A stretch of 64,000 nt of DNA, taken from the NCBI GenBank assembly GCA_025356435.1, contig JANXSY010000160.1, positions 1 to 64,000 of the forward strand, read 5' to 3'. Source of the stretch: Isosphaeraceae bacterium (lineage in GTDB: Bacteria; Planctomycetota; Planctomycetia; Isosphaerales; Isosphaeraceae). Positions within the stretch are counted from its first letter, which is position 1, and each line of letters opens with the position of its first letter. The notes under the pieces are model-generated. The model searched no databases. It worked only from the letters and a program-made list of their open reading frames with translations, and was not told where the DNA came from. Both the position numbers and the translations under genes were made by a program. This document shows positions 5,307 through 7,048 of the stretch, one piece after another.

Positions 5307-5635
5307 AGCGTCCCGAAGACGCTCTCCATCAGCTCGCTTCGGAAATGATCGGCCGTCGCCCCGTACGGCCAGCCCTCACCGGTGGCTCGAATTTCACGAT
5401 CGATGAGGAGCCGCTTTTGCTCCTCGCGGACGTCTGCCTCTCCGACTGGGTCACGGACGGGCGGCGGGGTGGATCGTCCCATATTTGTGGGGAAGGTCAG
5501 ACCGGGATTCGCGCGAGGCCGTGGATGCGACCCACCACGATCCGCCCAGACCCGCCCGGAGAACTCGGTGAGCGAGACAGGCCCGCCCGACTCCGTTTGG
5601 GGACGGAAGGGGCGAGCCTGTGTTTGCTCAGTCAA

Positions 5636-5985
5636 TGCGGCCCGCAGGATTCGAACCTGCAACCAAGGGATTCAAGCGCCCTCGCGTTTCCACGAGGCTT
5701 GGACTATCTCACCCTCCCCACTCGCCCGCGAGCGGGTCTGCGTGGAGGCCGGGGGCTCGTCGGCGGGGGTTATTGTTGGGACTCACCCCGCTAGTCTCTG
5801 AACCTTCCTGGCCACCGATGCCCGGCCAGGCTCGGCTGCGGATTGCCTTGCGACCGCCTATCGGACGTTCCCGCGAGACGGACGTTTAGGTTTCCCGCAA
5901 TTCACCCGGTTCGCATCCGGAGGTTACCCCCCGGTGCCACCTTTTCCTTGATGAGTCCCCTGCTCTACCGTTGAGCTAGGGCCGC
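5636..5985 (-). tRNA. tRNA with CAU anticodon (elongator Met or Ile2), interrupted by a group I intron
   Basis: Minus-strand exon 1 (5985..5951) GCGGCCCTAGCTCAACGGTAGAGCAGGGGACTCAT and exon 2 (5672..5636) AATCCCTTGGTTGCAGGTTCGAATCCTGCGGGCCGCA. Joined, they give a cloverleaf: 7-bp acceptor GCGGCCC/GGGCCGC, D stem GCTC/GAGC, anticodon stem GGGGA/TCCCT with loop CTCATAA, T arm GCAGG-TTCGAAT-CCTGC. CCA not encoded. Confidence 0.92.
5673..5950 (-). ncRNA. Group I self-splicing intron (IC3-like) in tRNA(CAU)
   Basis: Intron begins after U of CAU and ends in G. IGS GTG pairs with exon CAU; P4 TGCGGG/TCCGCA; core 'GGGAAACCTAAACG', 'GGCAATCCGCAGCC', P7 strands 'TTCAGAGACTAG' and 'GAGATAGTCCAAGCC'; terminal hairpin CCTCG/CGAGG. 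Same order of motifs as the Azoarcus tRNA-Ile(CAU) intron. No ORF of significance inside. Confidence 0.9.
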
Positions 5986-6002: not shown

Positions 6003-6042
6003 CAAGATCGAGGACGATGCAAGGGCATCGTCCTCGATCTTG
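6003..6042. terminator. Perfect 18-bp hairpin between desaturase gene and tRNA
   Basis: caagatcgaggacgatgc-aagg-gcatcgtcctcgatcttg; no U-tract on either strand. Confidence 0.55.
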
Positions 6043-6079: not shown

Positions 6080-7048
6080 TCAGTTGGCGGCGGTCGCGAG
6101 TTCGGGCTCTTCGTCCTTGTGAGACGCGTCGTGAACCCGAGCCTCCAGGTCGAGCGGACGTATCTCCAGGGGAGAGACGACGTTCGCAACTTTGGGCATC
6201 TTGATCGTGTGAACCAGACCGACCCAGGAGAGTGCCTTGATCGCCATGTAGGTCATGTCAATTTCCCACCAGGCGGTCCCGTGCCTGGCCGACGTCTGGA
6301 ACGCGTGATGGTTGTTATGCCAGCCTTCACCGTAAGTGACAATCGCGACCCACCAGAGGTTCGTCGAGTCGTCGCGGGTTTCGTGGGTCCGGTAGCCCCA
6401 GACGTGGGTGGCGGAGTTGACCAGCCAGGTCGCGTGGAGGACGAGAACCGTGCGGAGGAAGCCGCCCCAGACCAGCCACGACATCCCCAGCTTCGGCGAG
6501 AACAGGTTGCCGACCAGGTAGAGGCCGACGAACAGGAGCAAGGGGAAGATGAGGTGATTCTTGTCGAGGAAGACGTGGACCTTGTCGCGTTCGAGGTCCG
6601 GCGTCCACTTCCGGTAGTATTCCGGGGTGTGGCGCGAGGTGATGTCGGGGGTCATGAACCAGAACATGTGGGCCCAGCCGAAGCTCCGGCGAGGGGTATG
6701 AGCGTCTTCATCGGTATCAGAGTGGGCGTGGTGCCGGCGATGGTCAGCGACCCAACCAATCGCGCCGCCTTCGCTGGCGCAACAACCGATGATCGTGAGC
6801 AAGTATTCGAAGGCCTTGGGACGGCAGACGAAGCTCCGGTGCGTGAGCAGCCGGTGATAGGTCATGCAGATGCCGACCCCACCCGTCAGCCAGTGCAGGA
6901 TGAAGAGCAGTGCCACTCCAGACCACGAGAAGTTGCCCGGAAAGAGTGCCAGGAGAGCCCCAACGTGGAGGGCTCCGATCCAGATGAGTGGACCCCAGGC
7001 AATATAACCGTTGGATGTCTCGGGGGTGTTTGTCGTCGTGGTCGCCAT
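6080..7048 (-). CDS. Membrane fatty acid (acyl-CoA delta-9) desaturase
   Basis: Histidine boxes HRLLTHRSF, HRRHH, HNNHH in a multi-TM protein. Confidence 0.9.
   Translation of the reverse strand: MATTTTNTPETSNGYIAWGPLIWIGALHVGALLALFPGNFSWSGVALLFILHWLTGGVGICMTYHRLLTHRSFVCRPKAFEYLLTIIGCCASEGGAIGWVADHRRHHAHSDTDEDAHTPRRSFGWAHMFWFMTPDITSRHTPEYYRKWTPDLERDKVHVFLDKNHLIFPLLLFVGLYLVGNLFSPKLGMSWLVWGGFLRTVLVLHATWLVNSATHVWGYRTHETRDDSTNLWWVAIVTYGEGWHNNHHAFQTSARHGTAWWEIDMTYMAIKALSWVGLVHTIKMPKVANVVSPLEIRPLDLEARVHDASHKDEEPELATAAN

Follow-up and report, generated by a model that had tools for sequence, protein, structure and literature searches.

Group I introns of bacterial transfer RNA (tRNA) genes are listed in a published table for cyanobacteria and for alpha- and betaproteobacteria only (PMC4033280). 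The tRNA-Leu(UAA) introns of cyanobacteria and plastids and the tRNA-fMet introns of cyanobacteria are known (cited in PMC4033280 and PMC8450103), and the authors of tRNAscan-SE 2.0 mention 36 genomes in which fMet or Ile2 genes are missing through group I introns, of which Acidovorax and Burkholderia are named for Ile2 (PMC8450103). Here we describe an insert of 278 nucleotides (nt) in the tRNA-Ile2(CAU) gene of an Isosphaeraceae bacterium, a planctomycete, found in a stretch of 64,000 nt that we call the window (positions 1 to 64,000 of contig JANXSY010000160.1, assembly GCA_025356435.1). From its sequence the insert is a real and well supported group I intron, and we are confident in the overall reading that it is self-splicing, that it sits in the only tRNA-Ile2(CAU) gene found in this genome, and that splicing is needed to read AUA codons. 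Group I introns in tRNA-Ile2 are already known, and the Isosphaeraceae are a host without an earlier report that we could find: a search of the open-licence literature gave no tRNA group I intron in planctomycetes. A preliminary description of the locus had called a planctomycete host notable, which stands in that sense, but the case is not a one-off, since the insert is near-universal in the family, to which Singulisphaera acidiphila also belongs.

The closest systems share some properties of this intron and lack others. The tRNA-Leu(UAA) and tRNA-fMet introns are likewise small bacterial group I introns in the anticodon loop, and the former has been inherited in its lineage for a long time, as the Isosphaeraceae intron appears to have been, but both the tRNA and the insertion site differ. 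The Acidovorax and Burkholderia tRNA-Ile2 introns differ in host phylum, and the Isosphaeraceae introns form a separate clade. The Azoarcus pre-tRNA-Ile(CAU) intron belongs to subgroup IC3 (Tanner and Cech 1996, cited in PMC4033280). It interrupts the same tRNA as the intron described here and has the same core, the guide GUG, and GNRA loops on both P2 and P9. In subgroup IC3 these two loops go with a compact core that has no additional helices between P7 and P3. The window intron has both of these loops, but it carries a conserved hairpin between P7 and P3 that the compact core does not have. The compact Azoarcus-like introns of proteobacteria (e.g. Limnohabitans, L200) are about 203-222 nt long and have no such hairpin, whereas the Isosphaeraceae introns are 252-416 nt long and have it. 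The likeness to Azoarcus and IC3 that was first proposed is therefore limited to the core, and the window intron is of a larger type, which has an additional hairpin between P7 and P3. The Comamonadaceae introns have their insertion point in common with those of Isosphaeraceae and a similar hairpin. With intron classes assigned by pattern, those of Comamonadaceae and Bacteroidota share a similar hairpin (UGAGGA..CAAUCCGAUAAG) between P7 and P3, gammaproteobacterial introns have one of another kind, and the compact Azoarcus-like introns have none.

Results

Exons and splice junction

The 5' exon of the tRNA, 35 nt ending at U36, lies at 5951..5985 on the minus strand, with the anticodon CAU at 5953..5951. 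The 3' exon, 37 nt from A37 to the discriminator base with CCA not encoded, lies at 5636..5672 on the same strand. When 5985..5951 and 5672..5636 are joined, ARAGORN folds the spliced exons into a full 72-nt cloverleaf with anticodon CAU, so the coordinates first given for the two half-tRNAs were exact. The intron between U36 and A37 occupies 5673..5950 (minus); it is preceded by U and has G as its terminal base, as do all the introns extracted. Its bounds at 5950 and 5673 follow from two outgroup genomes in another family of the class (G044 and G039), in which the same tRNA is uninterrupted and CAT runs directly into AATCCC (...GACTCAT/AATCCC...). These intronless orthologues confirm the junction independently, and the initial placement of the insert directly 3' of the anticodon is borne out.

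It had been suggested that standard tools may miss or miscall this tRNA, and they do. ARAGORN finds no tRNA in the raw, unspliced window and in its intron mode miscalls the locus as tRNA-Ser(UGA). Open reading frames (ORFs) overlap the insert on both strands, for example 5345..5794 and 5382..5801 (both plus), and are probably spurious.

Group I identity and structure

The Rfam model Intron_gpI (RF00028) matches 5963..5680 on the minus strand from its first to its last position with 41.4 bits (E-value 3.9e-9 for the local stretch and 8e-9 genome-wide), and this is the sole RF00028 match in the genome. The P3-P8 and P4-P6 domains are present with the P7 pseudoknot, and P3, P4, P5, P6, P7 and P8 were all found. 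The reading of the locus as a compact intron with no endonuclease ORF, splitting a CAU tRNA after U36, is upheld by the covariance-model match, the intronless orthologues, conservation and covariation together.

The structure was tested by pair counting on an alignment of 29 family introns, using 64 pairs and 500 shuffles. With the P7 pseudoknot included, 97.4% of the pair cells are standard. Double-sided changes occur in 23 of the 64 pairs, a number reached by none of the 500 shuffles. Sliding the partners lowers pairing to about 38-52%, in a control that favours the structure because it was derived from the same alignment.

The internal guide sequence GGUG (5938..5941, minus) forms P1 with exon C34-A35-U36 and intron C1. 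P1 is 100% paired in the 29 sequences, with the guide GUG invariant, the U36.G wobble at the 5' splice site in 29/29 and a compensatory change from C-G to U-A at its fourth pair in three of them, which agrees with the complementarity of GUG to the exon CAU noted at the outset. Both the RF00028 match and the alignment support P4 (UGCGGG/UCCGCA; 5837..5899), which encloses P5, and the guanosine-binding helix P7, whose 5' strand GACUA at 5792..5796 pairs with UAGUC at 5706..5702; the alignment places the 5' strand of P3 at 5903..5909 with its partner at 5755..5749 (all minus). The P4 strands and core strings quoted in the preliminary description are all present. The P2 loop is GUAA in the window intron and GNRA throughout the alignment, and the P9 loop GAAA is invariant. 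The extra hairpin (GCGGGG..CCCCGC; 5763..5791, minus) is P7.1-like and nearly invariant in the family; all family introns have GCGGGGUGAG....AAUAAYCCCCGC between P7 and P3, hardly changed.

Distribution in the family and class

Searching for CAU followed by a base other than A, we found an insert at the same base in 41/45 sampled family genomes. The genomes without a detected insert are three incomplete assemblies (G008, G019 and G065), of which G008 matches over 25 bases at the end of a contig, and G016 (96% complete), in which no tRNA-Ile2 gene was found. A finished relative, G027, has the intron at the same position. Insert length varies from 252 to 416 nt across the family while the exons are near-identical, as expected of a functional gene. 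Desaturase-like genes adjoin the tRNA in about 31 family genomes. In the intron tree, whose bootstrap had yet to settle fully and which leaves the nearest relative unresolved, the Isosphaeraceae introns form one clade (100/99) in which several genera group together. The conserved neighbour and the single clade point to vertical inheritance of the intron within the family.

The pattern matched three of 353 other genomes of the class (G048, G093 and G207), and one of these has a verified intron. That intron, in a genome of another planctomycete family (G048; L123, G048:C275), occupies the same site in tRNA-Ile2 and is of the compact Azoarcus-like kind; two genomes of G048's own family are intronless, which suggests a separate acquisition. 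The matches in G093 and G207 were rejected as introns since they have no group I match. The one in G207 resembles a Y RNA, with a sub-threshold match to YrlA (Y RNA-like) at L315:59-189 (G207:C1) and a tRNA-like half.

Distribution beyond the class

Scanning one genome from each species with the pattern gave at least 120 places, from which at least 95 further distinct same-site inserts were extracted, a few of them with overlong 3' ends from the pattern match. The assemblies that carry them are labelled as Gamma- and Betaproteobacteria, Bacteroidota, Verrucomicrobiota and Actinomycetota. One contig labelled as an Akkermansia muciniphila metagenome-assembled genome (L136) holds an intron very like the Limnohabitans one (L200) and is probably Limnohabitans contamination. 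Three Bacteroidota same-site introns (L179, L196 and L241) measure 665-685 nt, which would leave room for an internal ORF. An exact search of viral contigs with the start of the window intron gave no match.

Discussion

Several observations weigh against our reading of the window intron as a self-splicing element in an essential gene. Its score of 41.4 bits falls under the RF00028 gathering score of 50 bits, and a default Rfam scan is silent at the locus for this reason. Folding by free energy is not by itself unusual (z -1.5). P4 and P7 are invariant in the family alignment and so draw no support from covariation, most of P3 is likewise invariant, and one P3 pair is a U x C mismatch in the window genome only, being absent from its 28 relatives. 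The single-copy status of the tRNA gene is taken from a draft genome (94% complete, 303 contigs). Lastly, splicing is predicted here from the DNA sequence.

The low Rfam score and the ORFs running across the insert might be held to indicate some other element that resembles a group I intron, such as a protein-spliced tRNA intron, a transposon remnant or coding sequence. We find this scarcely credible given the full P1-P9 architecture with covariation, the group I matches above the Rfam cut-off in 30/45 family genomes and the passing of that cut-off by 15/18 same-site loci from assorted genomes, two of the 18 being from Isosphaeraceae. It is also very unlikely that the interrupted gene encodes an elongator tRNA-Met(CAU). 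ARAGORN does print Met, but it does so for any CAU anticodon, and the genome already contains another CAU gene of elongator type (L023) as well as three that resemble initiators. In E. coli the spliced tRNA best matches genes annotated as tRNA-Ile, at about 80% identity, the one inspected having the anticodon CAT, and TilS, whose gene is present, needs a substrate. The interrupted tRNA is thus most likely tRNA-Ile2, with lysidine predicted at C34. A further possibility is that the intron is a relic that no longer splices and that another tRNA serves AUA decoding. The draft state of the genome and the P3 mismatch could be taken this way, as could the rarity of AUA, which is used in 7 of the 212 Ile codons of eight window genes. 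We regard a relic as highly improbable, however, because no second Ile2 gene (a check for an uninterrupted CAU tRNA of the same type had been proposed) and no UAU tRNA were found in the genome, and because the finished G027 shows the interrupted copy alone, the exons are near-invariant across the family and tilS is kept.

Returning to a self-splicing intron in an apparently single-copy tRNA-Ile2 gene, the interruption of the sole Ile2 gene together with the presence of tilS means that AUA should be readable only after splicing. The intron very probably cuts itself out, although we infer its activity in the cell, its chemistry and its essentiality. In the precursor the anticodon C34 A35 U36 would pair with the intron guide GUG, leaving the U.G wobble at the 5' splice site, which guanosine bound in P7 would attack. 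The freed U36 would then attack after the terminal G of the intron, joining A37 to U36 and so re-forming the anticodon loop. TilS could add lysidine only to the spliced tRNA, which alone could then be charged with Ile and read AUA.

An intron that is near-universal in a planctomycete family, yet whose window copy is missed by ARAGORN and Rfam defaults, has practical consequences. Where a genome seems to be without tRNA-Ile2 or tRNA-Lys(UUU), the gene may just be interrupted. An intron that is naturally fixed in an essential tRNA of single copy would also be a clean system in which to ask why such introns persist.

A second intron and other tRNA findings

The case of tRNA-Lys(UUU) came to light because extra group I matches were seen in relatives. 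In the window's genome, outside the window, this tRNA is split between U34 and U35 by a 299-nt group I-type intron at L263:1541-1839 (with exons, G000:C269:38704-39083). The 34|35 site is also the position of the tRNA-Leu(UAA) intron. About 35 relatives have the same split and several genomes of genus g18 are uninterrupted; the window's genome gave no Lys(UUU) gene free of an insert. The alignment folds to a group I layout with compensatory changes in 33/77 predicted pairs, and in several members C-G replaces A-U at one P7 pair. The Rfam scores are 36-54 bits in four relatives, with no match to the copy in the window's genome. The open literature that we searched gave no previous case of a full-length group I intron in a bacterial tRNA-Lys(UUU). 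Elements of 22-49 nt, one of them in a tRNA-Lys, have been described as group I introns (PMC5733544), and we judged these too short to be such.

It is a tentative and rather doubtful idea that Isosphaeraceae have kept two unrelated self-splicing introns for much of the family's radiation, each in an essential tRNA gene of single copy (Ile2 and Lys-UUU), coupling AUA and AAA decoding to ribozyme splicing. If true, decoding of these codons could follow, for example, guanosine triphosphate (GTP) or Mg2+ levels.

Elsewhere, a genome of genus g6 has an insert with a weak group I match (21.8 bits) in a tRNA-Leu whose anticodon appears to be CAA (L116, G023:C122:1394-1609); in the window's genome Leu(CAA) is uninterrupted and truncated at a contig end (L047). 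No Leu(UAA) gene was found there, and a search for additional 5' halves of tRNA-Leu turned up four, each belonging to a Leu gene already identified. Another weak group I match, of 22 bits, lies in no recognisable tRNA (L117, G005:C107:22001-22139).

Upstream of the tRNA-Ile2 gene in the window, tblastn supports a desaturase-like gene at 6080..7048 (minus), named from a reading of the sequence itself. A perfect 18-bp inverted repeat with a 4-nt loop follows it at 6003..6042, just upstream of the tRNA, and is possibly its terminator.
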